Source of the DNA: Sulfurimonas crateris
GTDB taxonomy: Bacteria > Campylobacterota > Campylobacteria > Campylobacterales > Sulfurimonadaceae
Assembly (NCBI RefSeq): GCF_005217605.1
Contig: NZ_SZPX01000005.1
Coordinates: 62,001-126,000 of the forward strand
DNA: 64,000 nucleotides
Reading direction: 5' to 3'
A program made the position numbers and the translations under genes. This document shows, one piece after another, positions 4,928-14,572 of the stretch; positions within the stretch are counted from its first letter, which is position 1; each line of letters opens with the position of its first letter. Under the pieces are notes generated by a model. The model ran no database searches, was not told the DNA's origin, and saw only the letters and a program-made list of their open reading frames with translations.

Positions 4928-5221
4928 ATGAAATTTGAATGGGATTTAAAAAAAGAAAAATCTAATATCAAAAAACATAAAGTGACGTTTGAAGAAGCTG
5001 CTTATGTTTTTAGCGATAAATATTCACTAACTCTTTTTGATAATAAACATTCAGAAGACGAAGAGAGATGGATATTATTAGGGAAATCTTTAAATGCTAT
5101 GGTGCTCGTGGTAGTTCATACATTTAGAGATAAAGATGGTGTTGAAATTGTCAGAATAATATCTGCTAGAAAAGCGACAAAAAATGAGCAACAAATATAC
5201 AATGAAAGGTGTCCATTATGA
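4928..5221 (+). CDS. brnT: BrnT-family ribonuclease toxin
   Basis: A 97-residue protein with the BrnT layout: FEWDLKKEKSNIKKHKVTF at the N-terminus, EEAAYVFSD, EERWILLGKS and the closing RIISARKATKNEQQIY. BrnT toxins are RelE-fold ribonucleases that arrest translation and are neutralised by BrnA. The gene overlaps the next one by four bases (ATGA), as usual for toxin-first type II pairs. The pair lies between tRNA-Asn and the nap control genes. About 170 AT-rich bases separate it from the tRNA and hold no recognisable integrase, so any mobile origin is only inferred from the tRNA-side position. Confidence 0.85.
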   Translation: MKFEWDLKKEKSNIKKHKVTFEEAAYVFSDKYSLTLFDNKHSEDEERWILLGKSLNAMVLVVVHTFRDKDGVEIVRIISARKATKNEQQIYNERCPL

Positions 5222-5661: not shown

Positions 5662-6321
5662 ATGGATGAGAAGCAAGACCTAATAAAAAAACTATCATTT
5701 TTTAGCTCGCTAAACGAAGAACAATTAAGCACGATAGGTAGTATTTCCAAAATAACGTCATATCCCAAAAACTCTATCCTATACTACGAAAACGACATAA
5801 ACGACAGAATCTTTTTCTTGATCTCGGGGCTTTTGAAAGTCTACAAAATAGATAAGTTTGAAAATGAGATATTTCTCTACCACATACAGAAAAACTCACT
5901 TATTTCCGAGCTTACAACACTAGATGACAACTCAATTCACTGCTTCTCAAATGCAGAGTTTTTAGATGAGAGCACCGTTTTAGAAGTTGATTTTACTGAG
6001 TTTAAAAATGAGTTTCTCTCCAAAAACATCTTAAATAACGAGTTTATAAATGAGATACTTTTAAAAACCCAACAGCTTCACTGCGTGGTAAACAGAGAGC
6101 TTGTTTTTGATGCAACGGCAAAAGTGGCATATACTCTGCAAAATGATCTTGAGATGTTCAACTCTCTAAAGAGACACGAGATCTCTTTTATGCTCCATAT
6201 TCAGCCTGAGACTCTCTCAAGGGTTTTAAAAAAACTAAAAAGAAACAATATAATAGATATTGAAAATTCCAATGTAGTAATTATAGATAGCCAAAAACTT
6301 AACAAGATAATTAAAGGGTAG
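5662..6321 (+). CDS. Crp/Fnr-family transcriptional regulator
   Basis: A 219-residue regulator with an N-terminal cyclic-nucleotide-binding-type beta barrel (about residues 15-115, including the NDRIFFLISGLLKVYKI strand), a long dimer helix, and a C-terminal winged helix with the recognition segment IQPETLSRVLKKLKRNNII. The N-terminal cysteine cluster of FNR is absent, so it is not an oxygen-sensing FNR of the usual type. Campylobacterota relatives such as NssR respond to nitrogen oxides. Its place next to the nap sensor and an FNR-like palindrome before napA suggests that it controls nap. The six bases before the next gene show coupled translation. The signal it senses is not visible. Confidence 0.85.
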   Translation: MDEKQDLIKKLSFFSSLNEEQLSTIGSISKITSYPKNSILYYENDINDRIFFLISGLLKVYKIDKFENEIFLYHIQKNSLISELTTLDDNSIHCFSNAEFLDESTVLEVDFTEFKNEFLSKNILNNEFINEILLKTQQLHCVVNRELVFDATAKVAYTLQNDLEMFNSLKRHEISFMLHIQPETLSRVLKKLKRNNIIDIENSNVVIIDSQKLNKIIKG

Positions 6322-6326
6322 CCGTT

Positions 6327-7337
6327 ATGACAATAAAATTCAATAAAATAAGCACAAAAATAAAAGTAATTGGTGCCCTGCTTATACTGTTGGTTGTGGG
6401 CGTCATAGGAACGACCATATATTTAACACAACAAAACATCAAAGATGCTTTGGTTATCAATATTGCGGGAAAACAGAGAATGTTAACTCAGGAGATATCA
6501 AAATCTATTTTCTATATACAGTACAGTGGTGTTTATGATTTTAAAGAGGCCGACAAGGCTACTACAGAATTTATATATGGACTGAGTACTCTAAAAAACG
6601 GTGATAAAGAAAAAGGCATCTCGGCAGTCTCCACAAGCGAAATATCTGCTCAGCTGCAATATGTGGAAAAACTATGGGATAGCTTCTATACCGACATTAA
6701 AGAGTATAAACAACTTGTGTACTTAGAGATCAAGCAAGAGCAACGCATCAGTGAAATAATAGAATCCATACATATAAACAATAGCATACTTTTAGAAAAT
6801 GTGGATAAGCTGGTAACAATGTATACAGACCACAGTGAAGGCAAAATAAACTTTATAAGAACATTTCAGTATCTTGCCGGCATTATGCTTTTTCTGATCT
6901 TTATATACTCGATTATACAACTCAAAACTATAGAGTCTAACGCAGACGCATTTATGCAGTACTCAAAAATGCTTGCGGATAACGAAGATATATCAAATCT
7001 TACTCCAATAGAGATACAAGCTGAGAGTGAAAGTGAGATCGTAGAGGTAAGCGATACTATAAACTGCTTTATCAATAAGATAAACTCAGCTGTAGAGTAC
7101 TCAAATGAAGCACTTCTGCAGTCTCAAAAAGCCTCATCCAAACTAGAAGAGCTAACCGATGAGTTCGACTCAATACTAGGTGAGCTAAAAGATAAGTCAC
7201 TAGCCTGCAAACACCTGGACAATAGTGAGGACATGGTTATAGCATCGACTGAAGAGTTGATGAACTCTACAAAAAAACTTGCAAATCTAAAAAAAGAGTT
7301 AGATGAACTGCTTAAGAACTGCCAAGTGCTTAAATAG
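6327..7337 (+). CDS. Kinase-less membrane sensor with NarX/PilJ-type nitrate box
   Basis: A 336-residue inner-membrane protein with transmembrane helices at about 14-34 and 182-202 enclosing a roughly 148-residue helical periplasmic domain. Right after the first helix comes DALVINIAGKQRMLTQ (residues 40-55), which matches the P-box of NarX/NarQ nitrate sensors and the PilJ N-terminal domain; Arg51 sits where those sensors bind nitrate. The cytoplasmic part shows a HAMP-like stretch (about 203-255, with ESESEIVEVSD) and a coiled coil, then ends. No histidine kinase, GGDEF or methyl-accepting signalling tip is present. The start overlaps the ribosome-binding region at the end of the Crp-family gene, so the two are coupled. 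It may pass the nitrate signal through a partner protein; that is inference. Confidence 0.75.
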   Translation: MTIKFNKISTKIKVIGALLILLVVGVIGTTIYLTQQNIKDALVINIAGKQRMLTQEISKSIFYIQYSGVYDFKEADKATTEFIYGLSTLKNGDKEKGISAVSTSEISAQLQYVEKLWDSFYTDIKEYKQLVYLEIKQEQRISEIIESIHINNSILLENVDKLVTMYTDHSEGKINFIRTFQYLAGIMLFLIFIYSIIQLKTIESNADAFMQYSKMLADNEDISNLTPIEIQAESESEIVEVSDTINCFINKINSAVEYSNEALLQSQKASSKLEELTDEFDSILGELKDKSLACKHLDNSEDMVIASTEELMNSTKKLANLKKELDELLKNCQVLK

Positions 7338-7420: not shown

Positions 7421-7464
7421 TTTGACTTAAGTCAAAGATTTTAATTCCTCTAAAGTGATAACAT
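7421..7464 (+). promoter_or_regulatory. nap promoter with FNR-like operator
   Basis: TTTGACTTAAGTCAAA (7421-7436) is a perfect 16-bp palindrome of the FNR form TTGAC-N4-GTCAA. Its centre at 7428.5 lies about 41.5 bases before a start site predicted from the extended -10 TG-a-TAACAT (7456-7464). This is the geometry of a class II Crp/Fnr-activated promoter. GTTAA (7471-7475) and TTAAC (7484-7488) form a further small inverted repeat near the predicted start site. The leader to napA is about 80 bases and ends with AGGAG at 7539-7543. Confidence 0.75.
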
Positions 7465-7548: not shown

Positions 7549-10368
7549 ATGTCACTTTCAAGAAGAGAATTTCTTAAAAGTTCAGCGGCGGCATCTGCTG
7601 CAGCGGCTGTTGGTATGAGCGTACCGGCAGAAGTTGAAGCGGCTGCTTCCCAAGCTGAAGGCGACTGGAGATGGGACAAGGCGGCTTGTCGTTTCTGCGG
7701 TACGGGCTGTGGTATTATGATGGCAACAAAGAACGGTAAAATCGTTGCTGTAAAAGGGGATCCCGCTGCACCGGTAAATCGTGGTCTTAACTGTATTAAA
7801 GGTTACTTCAATGCAAAGATCATGTATGGTGCCGACAGGCTAACTCAACCACTTCTAAGAGTCGATGCTAACGGTAACTTCGACAAAAAAGGTAAGTTTG
7901 CTCCAATATCATGGAAAAGAGCTTTTGATGAGATGGAAACTCACATCAAAAAGGCGCTAAAAGCAAGCGGTCCTGAAGGAGTCGGTATATTTGCATCGGG
8001 ACAATATACCATTATGGAGGGTTATGCAGCCCAAAAAATGATGAAGGCAGGTTTTAGATCAAATGCGATCGATCCAAATGCTCGTCACTGTATGGCATCT
8101 GCCGTTGTCGGTTTTTACCAGACATTCGGTGTTGATGAGCCTTCAGGCTGTTATGATGATATAGAACTTACCGATACAATAGTATCTTGGGGTTCAAATA
8201 TGGCGGAGATGCACCCTATTTTATGGTCACGTGTAACTGATAGAAAACTCTCAGACCCTGATCGTGTAAAGGTTGTCTCTATTCAAACCTACACACACAG
8301 AACTTCAGATTTGGCTGACATAGAGATAATCTTCTCTCCAAATACAGATGGAGCTATCTGGAACTATATTGCCAGAGAGATCGTTATGAGAGATGAAAAA
8401 GAGGGCATTATTGACTGGGATTTCGTCAAGAAACATATGATATTTGCAGCCGGACCTGTAAACATAGGTTACGGTATGAGAAGAGAGGGTGAAAAATCAC
8501 TAAAAGAGGGCAAGTACAGCGCATTAGAGATGGAGACTATCTCTAAAGAGATGAGTACAGTGGTATCTAAAAAAGAGGGTCCTGCTCTTGAGCCTTACGG
8601 CTATAAAGCTGGTGACACTATGAAGCATACTGCCGGTACTTTAGGTCACTGGGAGATCTCTTTTGAAGAGTATAAAAAATCTCTAGAGCCTTATGATCTT
8701 CACTATACGGCGACCATTTCAAAAGGTAATCCTGATGAAAATCTTGAAGAGTTCAAAGATAAACTTCAAGCTTTAGCTAACCTCTACATTGAAAAAAACA
8801 GAAAAGTAGTATCTTTCTGGACCATGGGTATGAATCAGCACACTCGCGGTACCTGGGTAAATACACTCTCATACAATGTACACTTTATGCTAAACAAGCA
8901 AGCTGTTCCAGGTTCTGGAGCATTTTCTCTGACAGGTCAGCCTTCAGCGTGTGGAACTGCTCGTGAAGTCGGTACATTTACGCACAGACTTCCTGCCGAT
9001 ATGATGGTAGCAAACCCTGAGCACAGAAAAATCTCAGAGCACAAATGGATGGTTCCTGAGGGAACAATTAATCCTGTAGGTGTTCAGCATATCATGAAGA
9101 TACACCGTGATATTGAAGACGGTCTCATCAAATTTGCATGGGTAAACGTATGTAACCCTTATCAAGATACTGCAAGTGCTACTCACTGGATCAAAGCGGC
9201 ACGTGAAATGGATAACTTTATAGTTACATCTGATGGCTATCCTGGTATCTCGGCAAAGGTTTCTGACCTTATTTTACCTTCTGCTATGATATATGAGAAG
9301 TGGGGAGCATACGGAAACGCTGAGCGTCGTACACAGCACTGGAGACAGCAGGTCATCCCTGTTGGTGACTCTATGAGTGATACATGGCAGTGGGTCGAGC
9401 TATCAAAAAGATTCACGGTCAAAGATGTATGGGGTGAGTGGGCTCCAAGCGGTCCTAGAAAAGATAAGCTTCCAAGCGTTATAGAGCAAGCAAAAGCTAT
9501 GGGCTACAACGAAAACACGACTATGTTTGAGATACTATTTGCAAACGATATTGCAAAATCATACAAACTTGACCAAAATGATCCTATCCAAAAAGGGTAC
9601 GATAACTCTGAGGGTTACGGAGACAGCAGGAATGTTGTAGGAAGTGACGGAAAAGTCTTCAAAGGATATGGATTTTTTATTCACAAATATCTTTTTGAGG
9701 AGTATGCAGCGTTTACTCGCGGACATGGGCATGACCTTGCACCGTTTGATATGTACCATAAAGTTCGTGGTCTTAAATGGCCTGTTGTTGACGGTAAAGA
9801 GACACAGTGGAGATTTAACGCTAAGTACGATCCTTATGCTGCAAAAGCTACAAAAGAGAGCGGAAATTCACACGCATTTTACGGAACACTTGCTAAAGCG
9901 CTTCCTTCCGGAGATTTACAAGGCGTTAAAGATAAAGAGAAGAAGTCTTTAGCTAACAAAGCCAAAATATTTGCTCGTCCGTATATGGATCCACCGGAAA
10001 TGCCGGATGAAAAGTACGATACATGGCTATGTACGGGACGTGTGCTAGAACACTGGCACTCTGGAACTATGACTATGCGTGTACCTGAACTCTACCGTGC
10101 CGTACCTGAGGCTCTATGTTATATGCACCCAAAAGATGCTGAGAACAAAGATCTTAAACAGGGTGGCTTATGCTGGGTTGAATCTCGTCGTGGCAGAGTA
10201 AAAGCAAGAGTTGAGACAAGAGGAAGAAACAGACCTCCAAGAGGTTTGGTATTTGTTCCGTGGTTTGATGAGAAGGTGTTTATAAATAAAGTGTGTCTGG
10301 ATGCAACGTGTCCAATGTCAAAACAGACCGACTTTAAAAAATGCGCCGTAAAAATCTATAAAGCGTAA
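7549..10368 (+). CDS. napA: Periplasmic nitrate reductase catalytic subunit NapA
   Basis: Reduces nitrate to nitrite in the periplasm with a Mo-bis-MGD cofactor and one 4Fe-4S cluster. The 939-residue protein starts with a Tat signal (SRREFLKSS), and the cluster cysteines are Cys47, Cys50, Cys54 and Cys82. The molybdenum ligand is Cys181 in [12 protein letters not shown]. It is longer than the E. coli protein (about 830 residues), with inserted stretches in the middle, as in other Campylobacterota NapA. It is first in the napAGHBFLD operon and receives electrons from NapB. The leader carries an FNR-like site. Nitrate respiration is the expected role. Confidence 0.98.
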
Positions 10369-10411: not shown

Positions 10412-11203
10412 ATGAGAAGCAAAACAGAGAATGACAGAAGAAAATTTATCTTAAGAATGGCAAGAGGTGCAGGTATAACTGCACTTGGCGGGTTTATATG
10501 GAGTGCGTATGTTGATGAAGTCACGGCTTCACAACTTATTTTGCGTCCGCCTGGTGCCATAAAAGAGGACGATTTTCTTCGTACCTGTATTAAGTGCGGG
10601 CTTTGCGTAGAAGCATGTCCTTATGATACTCTGCTACTTGCAAAACCGGGAGACAACAAACCTTTGGGAACACCATATTTTATTCCCAGAGATATTCCTT
10701 GTTATATGTGTCCTGATATTCCGTGTGTACCGGTATGCCCAAGTGGAGCACTAGATGAATCAAGCGTTACTACAGATGGCAAACTTGACATAAAAATAGC
10801 CGAGATGGGGCTTGCTGTTATTGACAGAGAGACCTGTATAGCTTTTTGGGGGATTCAGTGTGATGCCTGTTATAGAGCCTGCCCTATTCTGGGTGAGGCA
10901 ATAACAGTTGAGTACAGCAAAAATGACAGAACAGGAAAGCATGCCTACCTGACACCTCTTGTTCATTCAGACGCCTGCACAGGTTGCGGGCTTTGCGAAA
11001 AGGCGTGCGTAACTGACAAAGCTTCTATATTTGTACTTCCAAAAGAGGTTGCAATGGGTAAAGCGGGAAGTTACTACATAAAAGGCTGGGACAAAAGTGA
11101 TGAGAAGCGTCTAGAAGAGGCTTCTTCCATCAAATCGACTACGGAGATAAGCAAAGAGAAGGCTATCGACTCTCTAAATAGCGATATGGAGGATTTATAC
11201 TAA
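10412..11203 (+). CDS. napG: Ferredoxin-type quinol dehydrogenase subunit NapG
   Basis: A 263-residue periplasmic iron-sulfur protein that with NapH forms the menaquinol dehydrogenase feeding NapB/NapA; this route replaces NapC in Campylobacterota. It starts with a Tat signal (NDRRKFILRMARG, Arg9 and Arg10). Four cysteine groups for 4Fe-4S clusters follow: CIKCGLCVEACP, CYMCPDIPCVPVCP, CDACYRACP and CTGCGLCEKAC. The start codon depends on a ribosome binding site 32 bases upstream, bridged by a hairpin. The stop overlaps the napH start (TAATG). Confidence 0.95.
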   Translation: MRSKTENDRRKFILRMARGAGITALGGFIWSAYVDEVTASQLILRPPGAIKEDDFLRTCIKCGLCVEACPYDTLLLAKPGDNKPLGTPYFIPRDIPCYMCPDIPCVPVCPSGALDESSVTTDGKLDIKIAEMGLAVIDRETCIAFWGIQCDACYRACPILGEAITVEYSKNDRTGKHAYLTPLVHSDACTGCGLCEKACVTDKASIFVLPKEVAMGKAGSYYIKGWDKSDEKRLEEASSIKSTTEISKEKAIDSLNSDMEDLY

Positions 11204-12030
11204 TGAGAACTCTTTGGAATAAATACCGCTATCTAATGTTTAGAAGAACAACACAGATAGGTCTGCTATTTTTGTACTTTGGAGCAAATATGTGGGGATG
11301 GGAGATACTTATGGGCAACCTAAGCTCTTCTCTCCTCTTTGGCATGATCCCTTTAAGCGACCCATACGCAGCACTGCAGATGCTAGCTGCAGGCGCTCTT
11401 TTAGCGACTGATATAATAGTCGGTGCTTTAATAATTACCGTTTTTTATATGATAATTGGCGGTCGTGCATTTTGCAGCTGGGTTTGTCCCGTAAATATAG
11501 TGACAGATGCTGCGGCACTTTTAAGAAGAAAGATAGGAGTTGACGAATTTGCCAAGAGACAACCAGCTTCGCGAAATATGCGATACTGGGTCTTGGCACT
11601 TAGTCTGATCATCTCTTTTTTGATGGGCATAACTGCTTTTGAATTTATATCGCCTATATCAATACTTCACAGAGGTATAATATTTGGCTTTGGATTTGGC
11701 TGGGCGGCAGTTCTTATTATCTTTCTTTTTGATCTTTTAGTTCTAAAAAACGGATGGTGCGGTCACATCTGCCCTCTTGGCGGGTTCTACTCGCTTGTAG
11801 GTAAGTTTAGTTTGATAAGAGTAAAACATACTCAGGAAAACTGCACCGAGTGTATGAAGTGTAAAGTTGTCTGCCCAGAACAGCAGGTTCTTTATATGAT
11901 AGGCAAGGAGAGCATTCCTGTTCTCTCTGGCGAGTGTACAAACTGTGCAAGATGCATAGAGGTTTGTGATGATAATGCTCTTGGTTTTTCAATAAGAGAG
12001 TTAGTAAAAAATAAAAAAGTGGGAGATTAA
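11203..12030 (+). CDS. napH: Quinol dehydrogenase membrane subunit NapH
   Basis: A 275-residue inner-membrane protein with about four transmembrane helices (near residues 15-32, 75-95, 125-145 and 160-182) and the CSWVCP and CGHICPLGGFY cysteine motifs facing the cytoplasm. Two ferredoxin-like 4Fe-4S motifs lie in the C-terminal part (CTECMKCKVVCP and CTNCARCIEVCD). It oxidises menaquinol and passes electrons to NapG. Its ATG shares a base with the napG stop, and napB begins one base after its stop. Confidence 0.95.
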   Translation: MRTLWNKYRYLMFRRTTQIGLLFLYFGANMWGWEILMGNLSSSLLFGMIPLSDPYAALQMLAAGALLATDIIVGALIITVFYMIIGGRAFCSWVCPVNIVTDAAALLRRKIGVDEFAKRQPASRNMRYWVLALSLIISFLMGITAFEFISPISILHRGIIFGFGFGWAAVLIIFLFDLLVLKNGWCGHICPLGGFYSLVGKFSLIRVKHTQENCTECMKCKVVCPEQQVLYMIGKESIPVLSGECTNCARCIEVCDDNALGFSIRELVKNKKVGD

Positions 12031-12031
12031 A

Positions 12032-12733
12032 ATGAAGGCAATGTATAAAATAACGTTTGGTTTGACTGCCTTACTGATGGTCGGTTTCATCGGTGACGGC
12101 GCTCAAGCTGCACAACAAAAAGGTGTGAATGCAACAATTTCTGAGGAGTCGTTGGGATTAAGAAAAACAGATATTTACAGCGAGGATGGCACGGTAGCAG
12201 ATGAGACAAAATACTCAACGGAACAGGCAACTACGAGTACAAAAATAAAAAGAGCGTTTCAGGATGCTCCGCCGATGATTCCTCATGATACTGTCGGTAT
12301 GCTTCCGATCAAGATAAACGACAATAGATGTATCAGCTGTCATATGCCTGATATCGCAGGTTCTATGGGTGCGACTCCTATTCCGGATTCACACTTTACG
12401 GATTTTAGACCTAAACATAAAGTTGAAGGCGGTGTGTTTAAGCAAGTGATTGATCCTTACAAGAACGAAGTGGCTATAAAAGAGGATAACAAGCTTCAGG
12501 GTGCTAGATTTAACTGTTCTCAGTGTCATGCTCCGCAATCAGAGGGCGAGTTAGTAGTTGAAAATACTTTTGAGCCTGTTTTTACAAGCAAAGATGGTGC
12601 AGAAAAATCAAGCTGGAGCGGTAAAAAACTTACAGAAGCTCTAAATACGCTCGGTGATGAGAGTTTTATTACGCAAGATGATATTGCAAACAAGAACTCT
12701 CCTGCAGGCAGTTTAGAGGGTGCAAAGCACTAA
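12032..12733 (+). CDS. napB: Diheme cytochrome c NapB
   Basis: The small periplasmic electron-transfer subunit of nitrate reductase. The 233-residue precursor has a signal peptide (MKAMYKITFGLTALLMVGFI, cut near AQAA). Two heme-attachment motifs are at Cys100-Cys103-His104 (CISCH) and Cys162-Cys165-His166 (CSQCH), and two further histidine-bearing segments can supply distal ligands. The C-terminal tail after the second heme is longer than in E. coli NapB. The stop overlaps the napF start (TAATG). A second ATG nine bases downstream is a possible alternative start. Confidence 0.95.
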   Translation: MKAMYKITFGLTALLMVGFIGDGAQAAQQKGVNATISEESLGLRKTDIYSEDGTVADETKYSTEQATTSTKIKRAFQDAPPMIPHDTVGMLPIKINDNRCISCHMPDIAGSMGATPIPDSHFTDFRPKHKVEGGVFKQVIDPYKNEVAIKEDNKLQGARFNCSQCHAPQSEGELVVENTFEPVFTSKDGAEKSSWSGKKLTEALNTLGDESFITQDDIANKNSPAGSLEGAKH

Positions 12734-13212
12734 TGCAAAGAAGAGAGCTCTTTAGCTCTCTTGCTTCATCAATAAACACAAAGAAGCAAGAGAAACTCTT
12801 AAGACCGCCATATTTTAGCGATGAATCTCTTTTTCATAAAGAGTGTAACAAATGCGATGCCAAGTGCGCCTCTGTTTGTGAAGAAGATATAATAAAGATC
12901 GCAGATAATAAAACTCCGCATCTGCTTTTTTCTAGTAGCGGCTGTACATATTGCGACAAATGCGCCGATGCCTGTGAATACGGAGTGTTAAACATTGAGA
13001 ATAAAAACAGAGTTGCGGCTATAATCTCAATTGACAAAAGCAGCTGTATAAGCTGGGGACATACCATGTGTTTTTCATGTAAAGATCCATGTATGTTCAG
13101 TGCGATAGATTTTAAAGCGATGTTTATGCCAAGCATAAACGAGAACTGTACTGCATGCGGACTATGTATAAGCAGATGTCCGACAGATGCAATAAAAGTA
13201 AAGGTTGTTTAA
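12733..13212 (+). CDS. napF: Ferredoxin-type protein NapF
   Basis: A 159-residue cytoplasmic protein with several 4Fe-4S cysteine groups: CNKCDAKCASVC, CTYCDKCADAC, CFSCKDPC and CTACGLCISRCP. NapF interacts with cytoplasmic NapA and is thought to help mature its iron-sulfur centre before Tat export. The opening MQRRELFSSLASS looks twin-arginine-like but lacks a hydrophobic export core, in keeping with a cytoplasmic protein. It overlaps napB at its start and napL at its stop by one base each. Confidence 0.93.
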   Translation: MQRRELFSSLASSINTKKQEKLLRPPYFSDESLFHKECNKCDAKCASVCEEDIIKIADNKTPHLLFSSSGCTYCDKCADACEYGVLNIENKNRVAAIISIDKSSCISWGHTMCFSCKDPCMFSAIDFKAMFMPSINENCTACGLCISRCPTDAIKVKVV

Positions 13213-14162
13213 TGAGAGCATTACTGTTTTTAGCTCTTCTATTTTCGCTTCTTTTTTCTTCAGAGATAAAAGAGCCGATTAGAAGTTTTACCTCAAGCGG
13301 CGGTGTCGTTGACCTGCTCTATAAAAATGGAAAACTTTACAGCGCTACAAATGCCAGCTGTGTAGATATCTTTGACTACAAAAGCGGAGAGCTTATTAAG
13401 AAGATTAAAGTTGAGAAGATAGAGGACTTTATGGGTGATCTCGTAGACTCAAAAGTCTACTCTGTAGATCTGTTTGACGAAAAGATATTGGTTCTTTCAC
13501 AGGACAGGCAGGGATTTAGAAGAGTTCATATACATCAAGATGAAAAGAGCAAGCTTCTGTTTGACTACTCCAAATCTCTTACCGTTTCAAAGGCGAGATT
13601 TTTGGATGAAAACACTATTTTGCTTGGACTGCTAAGCAATGAACTGGTCTCATATGACATCAACAAAGGCTCCATAAACTGGATGATCCAAGTCTCGGGC
13701 GCAAAATTTTCCGACTTTGTTCTAAGTGAGACAAAAGAGATAGTGGTAGTTGCCGATGAGAGCGGGGATCTGAAGATCCACAGCACAAAAGACGGAAAAC
13801 GGCTAAAACTTCTCTCAGGACAAAATCTGGACAACGTGTTTCAGGTTGATTATAAGAACAGTGTCATAGCGACTGCGGGGCAAGACAGAAGAGCCGTTAT
13901 TTACGATTTAAAGTCAGACTCATCACACTACTTTGAGTCAGGATTTTTGATCTATAGTGTCGGTCTGTCGCCAAGCGGCAGAGTAGTCGGATATGCAAGC
14001 GATGAGGAGAACAATATATCACTTGTCGATCTCTCTACAAAAGAGTTGCTCGGCATATTTGGCGGTAACAAAATGACTCTTACAAAAATAGTTTTTGTAG
14101 ATGAGAGTGAGTTTTTAGCCGCTAGTGATGACAGGGTCATTAATCTATATAGTGTAAAATAA
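13212..14162 (+). CDS. napL: NapL, periplasmic WD40-like nap accessory protein
   Basis: A 316-residue protein with a signal peptide (MRALLFLALLFSLLFSS) and repeated beta-propeller strands, such as GKLYSATNASCVDIFDYKSG and IATAGQDRRAVIYDLKSD. NapL is found in nap operons of Campylobacterota; its exact role is not settled, although in Wolinella succinogenes it was reported as dispensable. The ATG at 13212 shares a base with the napF stop, which is preferred over longer in-frame starts lying inside napF. Confidence 0.88.
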   Translation: MRALLFLALLFSLLFSSEIKEPIRSFTSSGGVVDLLYKNGKLYSATNASCVDIFDYKSGELIKKIKVEKIEDFMGDLVDSKVYSVDLFDEKILVLSQDRQGFRRVHIHQDEKSKLLFDYSKSLTVSKARFLDENTILLGLLSNELVSYDINKGSINWMIQVSGAKFSDFVLSETKEIVVVADESGDLKIHSTKDGKRLKLLSGQNLDNVFQVDYKNSVIATAGQDRRAVIYDLKSDSSHYFESGFLIYSVGLSPSGRVVGYASDEENNISLVDLSTKELLGIFGGNKMTLTKIVFVDESEFLAASDDRVINLYSVK

Positions 14163-14182
14163 AAAAGAGAAAAGGAAATATA

Positions 14183-14572
14183 ATGAATATCTCAAGTATA
14201 GTAGTTCAAACAGTGCCAAAATACCTAGAAGAAGTTGTTGAAAACCTTAAAAATTGTGATGCGTGTGACTACCATATGCATGATGAAAAAGGCAGAATAA
14301 TTATTACGATAGAGGGTGACGGAGTTGCTCAGGAGCTTGAAAAGCTAAGAGTTATAGAATCAATACCTCACGTAATTGCAGCGGATATGCAGATGTCTTA
14401 CAGTGAAGATGAACTTGATGCACATATGGAAGTGATAAACGGTGGAGATGCCGTTCCAAAGATGCTAAACGACGACTCGATTGATGCTTCTAAAATAGTA
14501 TACAACGGCGATCTAAAGAAAAAAGATGATCTGGCTACTTTTACTAAAAAATTTGATGAAACGAAGAGGTGA
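14183..14572 (+). CDS. napD: NapD, NapA signal-peptide chaperone
   Basis: A small cytoplasmic chaperone that binds the Tat signal of NapA and delays export until the cofactor is in place. Residues 1-80 show the NapD ferredoxin-like fold (ISSIVVQTVPKYLEEVVENL ... GRIIITIEGDG ... IPHVIAADMQMSY). At 129 residues it is clearly longer than E. coli NapD (87); the extra 40 or so acidic and lysine-rich residues have no recognised domain. GGAAA precedes the ATG. The next gene starts four bases after the stop. Confidence 0.9.
   Translation: MNISSIVVQTVPKYLEEVVENLKNCDACDYHMHDEKGRIIITIEGDGVAQELEKLRVIESIPHVIAADMQMSYSEDELDAHMEVINGGDAVPKMLNDDSIDASKIVYNGDLKKKDDLATFTKKFDETKR

Follow-up and report, generated by a model that had tools for sequence, protein, structure and literature searches.

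An enzyme-less membrane protein with a nitrate-type PilJ domain is encoded with a Crp/Fnr-family regulator upstream of the nap operon in Sulfurimonas crateris and may signal to it directly

The window analyzed here, a stretch of 64,000 nucleotides from Sulfurimonas crateris, carries a gene for a Crp/Fnr-family regulator of 219 amino acids (positions 5662–6321, forward strand) followed on the same strand by a gene for a membrane protein of 336 amino acids (6327–7337). The gap from the Crp stop codon to the ATG of the sensor gene is 5 nt, which makes coupling likely here; in relatives the spacing is mostly −8 to +9 nt, and the commonest value is −4, a 4-nt overlap. The napA gene, the likely start of the target operon in the ORF list (7549–10368, forward strand), begins 212 bp downstream of the sensor gene. 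It is followed by ORFs that are syntenic in relatives (10412–14572, forward strand), which we take to be napG, napH, napB, napF, napL and napD from the epsilonproteobacterial nap order. A perfect palindrome, TTGACTTAAGTCAA (7422–7435, forward strand), lies between the sensor gene and napA, 113 bp before the latter, and is a candidate Crp site. The initial annotation had described a sensor translationally coupled to the upstream Crp gene and preceding the nap promoter, and the arrangement found here agrees with both points. It is noted that a BrnT-type ribonuclease toxin is encoded upstream of the Crp gene (4928–5221; PF04365, E = 8e-28), and that a short ORF downstream of the toxin gene may be its antitoxin.

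The sensor consists of a transmembrane helix, a PilJ-type four-helix periplasmic domain, a second transmembrane helix, a HAMP-like segment, a coiled coil and a conserved C-terminal helix. The PilJ domain was identified in Pfam as PF13675 with E = 4e-16 and a score of 59.4 bits, compared to the curated cut-off of 26.6; it spans approximately residues 34–174 (6426–6848, forward strand). The 336 residues were searched against Pfam without any match to a kinase, cyclase, MCP or other output domain; neither a DHp nor a catalytic kinase domain is present, and PF00015, the MCP signalling domain, gave no match. The Pfam HAMP model did not match the sensor either, and the HAMP-like segment, approximately residues 198–256 (6918–7094, forward strand), is assigned from structure comparison only. 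These searches, alignment A1 and the AF2 model bear out the earlier description of a P-box sensor with two membrane helices, a HAMP-like segment and a coiled coil but no output enzyme. Pfam and PDB gave some coiled-coil matches for the C-terminal half, but these were weak and were treated as noise.

The AF2 model of the sensor, built with 37 homologues, is confident for the periplasmic four-helix bundle (pLDDT mostly 86–97), and the cytoplasmic half, including the HAMP-like segment, has low pLDDT. Superposition on the ligand-binding domain of McpN gives a Z score of 17.8 and 2.0 Å over 124 residues, and residues 3–256 align to the sensor-TM-HAMP structure of NarQ (PDB 5iji) with a Z score of 14.4 over 220 residues. 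In sequence, the sensor is closest, among proteins of solved structure, to PilJ and to McpN, the nitrate receptor. It should be mentioned that moderate Z scores are common among four-helix bundles, so that the case for the fold rests on the fold, the N-box and the sequence match taken together. The C-terminal helix carries the motif SEDxVIxSTEELxxSTKKLxxLKxEL (residues 300–325; 7224–7301, forward strand), a candidate contact for the Crp protein. Its residues E301, I305 and E309 are retained across the nap, tandem and nos sensor types, and C-terminal invariants also appear in alignment A4. Two cytoplasmic cysteines, C247 and C332, are kept in 72 and 79 of 91 single-domain nap-type sensors, respectively, and are absent from nos-type and tandem sensors.

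Within the periplasmic domain, residues 44–55 (6456–6491, forward strand) form the sequence INIAGKQRMLTQ, which includes Gly48 and Arg51. It fits exactly the N-box [IVL][ND]xAGxQRML[ST]Q proposed by the McpN authors as the mark of nitrate-binding PilJ domains; in McpN, Arg61 supplies hydrogen bonds to nitrate (PMC6381276). Gly48, Arg51, Met52 and Gln55 are invariant in all 107 nap-type relatives scored, in keeping with the nitrate box that the initial annotation had placed at Arg51. With a PilJ domain above the cut-off and an N-box bearing the nitrate arginine, the sensor has the features used to recognize PilJ nitrate sensors and is predicted to bind nitrate.

The Crp partner contains both PF00027 and HTH_Crp_2 (PF13545), and its AF2 model matches Crp/Fnr structures in fold, with the cNMP-binding fold and the HTH_Crp domain both present. 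Alignment to E. coli CRP shows that the Arg-Ser of the cAMP-phosphate site is missing, a loss that would suit a regulator signalled by a partner protein. Among the paired Crps of the nap type, C94 is found in 103 of 107 and C141 in 101 of 107, and both are absent from nos-type and unpaired Crps. The two cysteines adjoin, in the alignment, the cAMP-phosphate and Ser128 positions of E. coli CRP and might form a redox or metal gate.

Profile matches to the sensor came from 114 of the 298 Campylobacteria genomes searched and represent 41 of the 58 genera, counts that include some other PilJ proteins. Conservation across genera rules out the reading of the sensor as a truncated chemoreceptor or a pseudogene of this strain only, which had been named with the initial annotation as a possible explanation. 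Records with genus names that carry the family belong to Sulfurimonas, Arcobacter, Aliarcobacter, Malaciobacter and Sulfurospirillum; many sensors outside the single-domain group have two tandem PilJ domains. A Crp gene lies directly upstream on the same strand for 141 of the 142 distinct sensor ORFs with enough readable upstream DNA, the sole exception being a PilJ-GGDEF protein. Across the 100 congeneric genomes searched, nap-type and nos-type Crps occurred together with their sensors, one-sided cases being few and located at contig ends. The pair also stays together away from nap (L072, L163, L222, L225), by norCB-nirS (L208) and by nosZ. The paired Crps form one clade in the Crp tree (SH-aLRT 100), outside which all unpaired Crps fall. 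Conservation of the pair throughout the class shows that the pairing of the two genes is not a matter of chance, and the near-constant position of the sensor behind its own Crp gene, frequently next to genes for nitrate or nitrous-oxide reductases, suggests a signalling pair.

In the search of the genus, 32 of the 79 napA-bearing genomes showed no nap-type pair; of these, at least G034 and G042 have a more distant pair near napA. The pair is thus not required for nap everywhere. Crp and sensor distances correlate with r = 0.94 for the nap type (highest permutation 0.89) and r = 0.47 for the nos type (highest permutation 0.52); common descent alone would give such a correlation, and it is not counted as evidence for partnership. 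Some individual loci may be mentioned. At L222 and L225 the neighborhood of the pair contains none of the nap, nos or nor genes. At L208 (5020–11206), in an Aliarcobacter-like genome, it directly precedes genes that, in our own reading of the sequence, resemble norC, norB and nirS. At L069 (9410–10382) and L176 (6001–6993) the sensor ORF is split over two frames and the Crp gene is intact, which may reflect sequencing error or recent decay.

The palindrome before napA conforms to TTGACN4GTCAA, for which it is the one match in the 64 kb window compared to 0.07 expected. The same motif was found before 25 of 25 nosZ genes and 15 of 25 napA genes tested in relatives, with about 0 expected. Of the four copies in the genome of the window, one precedes napA and one nosZ, and the other two lie within unrelated genes. 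The paired Crp is the putative ligand of this palindrome, which might also serve other Crp/Fnr proteins such as NssB; a related site, TTGA-N6-TCAA, has been used for the Crp/Fnr regulators of Nitrosophilus labii (PMC11539149).

A second Crp (48% identical) and a second sensor (31%) are encoded elsewhere in the same genome in the same arrangement, downstream of ftsA-ftsZ; a clade II nosZBDGC1C2HFL cluster follows directly. The order ftsA-ftsZ, pair, nos is repeated in the nos-type loci of other genomes. Of the 100 congeneric genomes, 54 carry nosZ, and 52 of these also have a nos-type sensor; none of the other 46 does. In both the sensor tree and the Crp tree, a single well-supported branch separates the nap copies from the nos copies, as would be expected if both genes were duplicated together. 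The nos-type sensors have lost Gly48, and 32 of the 34 rows scored as nos-type show lysine at position 51, the 34 including one misfiled R-type (nap-type) sensor, L218 (GSERM), placed there by the P-box regular expression. Replacement of the nitrate arginine by lysine in NarX abolishes ligand sensitivity, and the R50K variant of NarQ was used for the nitrate-free structure (PMC7247690). Given these effects, together with the loss of Gly48, the nosZ-side sensor is unlikely to bind nitrate. An altered input site combined with retained C-terminal residues fits a conserved way of addressing the Crp protein. Two further Campylobacterota genomes (L165/L206 and L176) have, upstream of nosZ, pairs that are of the nap type as judged by their identity to that of the window; a nitrate-type pair can thus also be placed at nos.

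To relate the pair to the Nss regulators of Wolinella, we used a genome, G262, that we take to be W. succinogenes DSM 1740; its nosZ is broken by an insertion element, as in that strain. This genome encodes exactly three Crp relatives. Two Crps of another genome, G150, share 45.2/28.6/25.5% and 33.2/48.8/28.2% identity with the three. These values resemble the published identities of the N. labii Crps to NssA/NssB/NssC, 44.8/29.2/26.1% and 33.3/50.0/28.2% (PMC11539149), and on this resemblance NssA, NssB and NssC were provisionally assigned among the G262 proteins. The window Crp is 46% identical to the putative NssA and 32% and 25% identical to the other two, and it groups with NssA rather than NssB or NssC both by identity and in the tree of paired Crps. 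The putative NssA gene is itself coupled to a sensor gene, whose product has tandem PilJ domains; the two genes lie upstream of napA, from which one convergent gene separates them. The putative NssB gene lies by an NnrS-like gene and that of NssC directly before nosZ, neither with a sensor, and in the Crp tree both proteins are among those outside the paired clade. NssC at nosZ without a sensor indicates that the wider family can work without a partner. In G262, TTGACN4GTCAA occurs twice ahead of napA and once ahead of nrfHA; a further match adjoins the gene of a NIT-domain chemoreceptor (L274, 4521–6524) and raises a possible link between regulon and chemotaxis.

According to the available parts of two reviews, published genetics makes NssA of Wolinella responsive to nitrate for nap, nrf and nos; in these parts NssA is described alone, its sensing mechanism is called open, and a membrane partner is not mentioned (PMC6682613, PMC8139620). 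The window Crp is most likely the NssA orthologue, nap activation by nitrate being published for Wolinella only. Our literature search for a PilJ protein together with Nss/Crp and nap returned nothing on the pair, the work of Kern and Simon (2016) being reached via reviews only.

Read at the level of sequence, the locus offers a nitrate-type domain, no output enzyme, obligate pairing, joint duplication and a conserved promoter palindrome. The direct link from an enzyme-less sensor to the Crp protein beside nap, suggested in the initial annotation, gains strong support from the pairing, the joint presence and absence, the duplication at nosZ, the palindrome at nap and nos, and the putative NssA identity of the Wolinella partner. 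We propose, with a probability of roughly 0.7, that the membrane sensor controls its dedicated Crp by contact, without phosphorylation, as a two-protein unit activating nap. Nitrate would be bound at the dimer axis of the periplasmic PilJ domain through Gly48 and Arg51, and the signal would pass along the transmembrane helices and the HAMP-like segment into the coiled coil ending in the conserved helix. The cytoplasmic part would then bind its own Crp partner and thereby set the ability of the Crp dimer to bind TTGACN4GTCAA sites and activate nap; both this physical contact and its sign, release of the Crp or its activation, are conjectural, and the cysteines of nap-type Crps might add a redox gate. 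The pair would have been duplicated in the Sulfurimonas lineage, the nosZ copy keeping the Crp partnership and the DNA site, losing the nitrate site and answering another cue. We also lean, somewhat less firmly, towards the wider scheme in which this direct-contact arrangement of an enzyme-less receptor and a dedicated Crp/Fnr regulator has spread through Campylobacteria and, by duplication, has diversified from nitrate at nap to a second cue, other than nitrate, at the operon of nitrous oxide reductase.

Other explanations of the locus were weighed. The Crp protein could sense alone, responding to NO or to the redox state of the cytoplasm; the pair of conserved cysteines near the old cAMP pocket might, for instance, serve this purpose, and the membrane protein would only modulate or localize the Crp. 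The confinement of C94 and C141 to nap-type Crps, their position beside the cAMP contacts of E. coli CRP, and the functioning of unpaired NssB and NssC without a sensor speak for this. However, no nap-type Crp was found without its sensor in the 100 congeneric genomes, contig ends aside, and the invariance of the N-box implies that nitrate binding matters; we consider sensing by the Crp alone rather unlikely.

It is also conceivable that the gene order reflects ordinary operon conservation and that the sensor serves another, unlinked effector, since the tree agreement within each type can be explained by common descent. Against this, neither gene was found alone in the congeneric genomes, contig ends again aside, and the pair is intact at the loci away from nap, by norCB-nirS or by nosZ, which leaves the explanation quite improbable. 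Very improbable, too, is docking of the sensor on a chemoreceptor array or on a separate histidine kinase, with the Crp gene a mere neighbor. The PilJ domain is indeed of the type found in McpN chemoreceptors and NarX/NarQ kinases, but the sensor has neither a receptor tip nor kinase domains, the Crp gene is its only constant neighbor, and the pair was duplicated and lost as a unit, so that docking, which the initial annotation had offered as an alternative, finds no support.

Set against known systems, the proposed contact-based pair shares with NarX and NarQ of E. coli the TM-PilJ-TM-HAMP-like layout, the P-box, the arginine and the glycine; unlike them, the sensor has no S-helix/GAF, DHp or CA domain and no response regulator, its partner being a Crp protein. 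McpN of P. aeruginosa (PDB 6gcv) matches the ligand domain best, in sequence as well as in structure, and has the same N-box, but it carries an MCP signalling domain, which the window sensor lacks. Compared to the NssA locus of W. succinogenes, the partner Crp is nearest in sequence and the coupling to a PilJ sensor upstream of nap is shared, whereas the Wolinella sensor has two PilJ domains and that of the window has one. NosR/NirI-type membrane activators of denitrification are flavin/Fe-S proteins without a DNA-binding domain that are needed for nos or nir transcription; the window sensor is likewise a membrane protein without such a domain, but its fold and sensing domain are unrelated.

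How the Nss regulators of Campylobacterota distinguish nitrate, NO and N2O is called open in a review (PMC8139620), and a nitrate receptor coupled to the putative NssA bears on this question. If the link is direct, it would add a route by which a transmembrane sensor controls transcription without a kinase, protease or second messenger. The copy that faces nosZ is of interest for how N2O reduction, which acts as a sink for a greenhouse gas, is controlled in bacteria that are widespread in marine and subsurface habitats. It is noted that in nearly all nos-type loci a gene for a small, conserved, exported-looking protein lies between ftsZ and the nos-type Crp gene, as at L059 (8377–8850).
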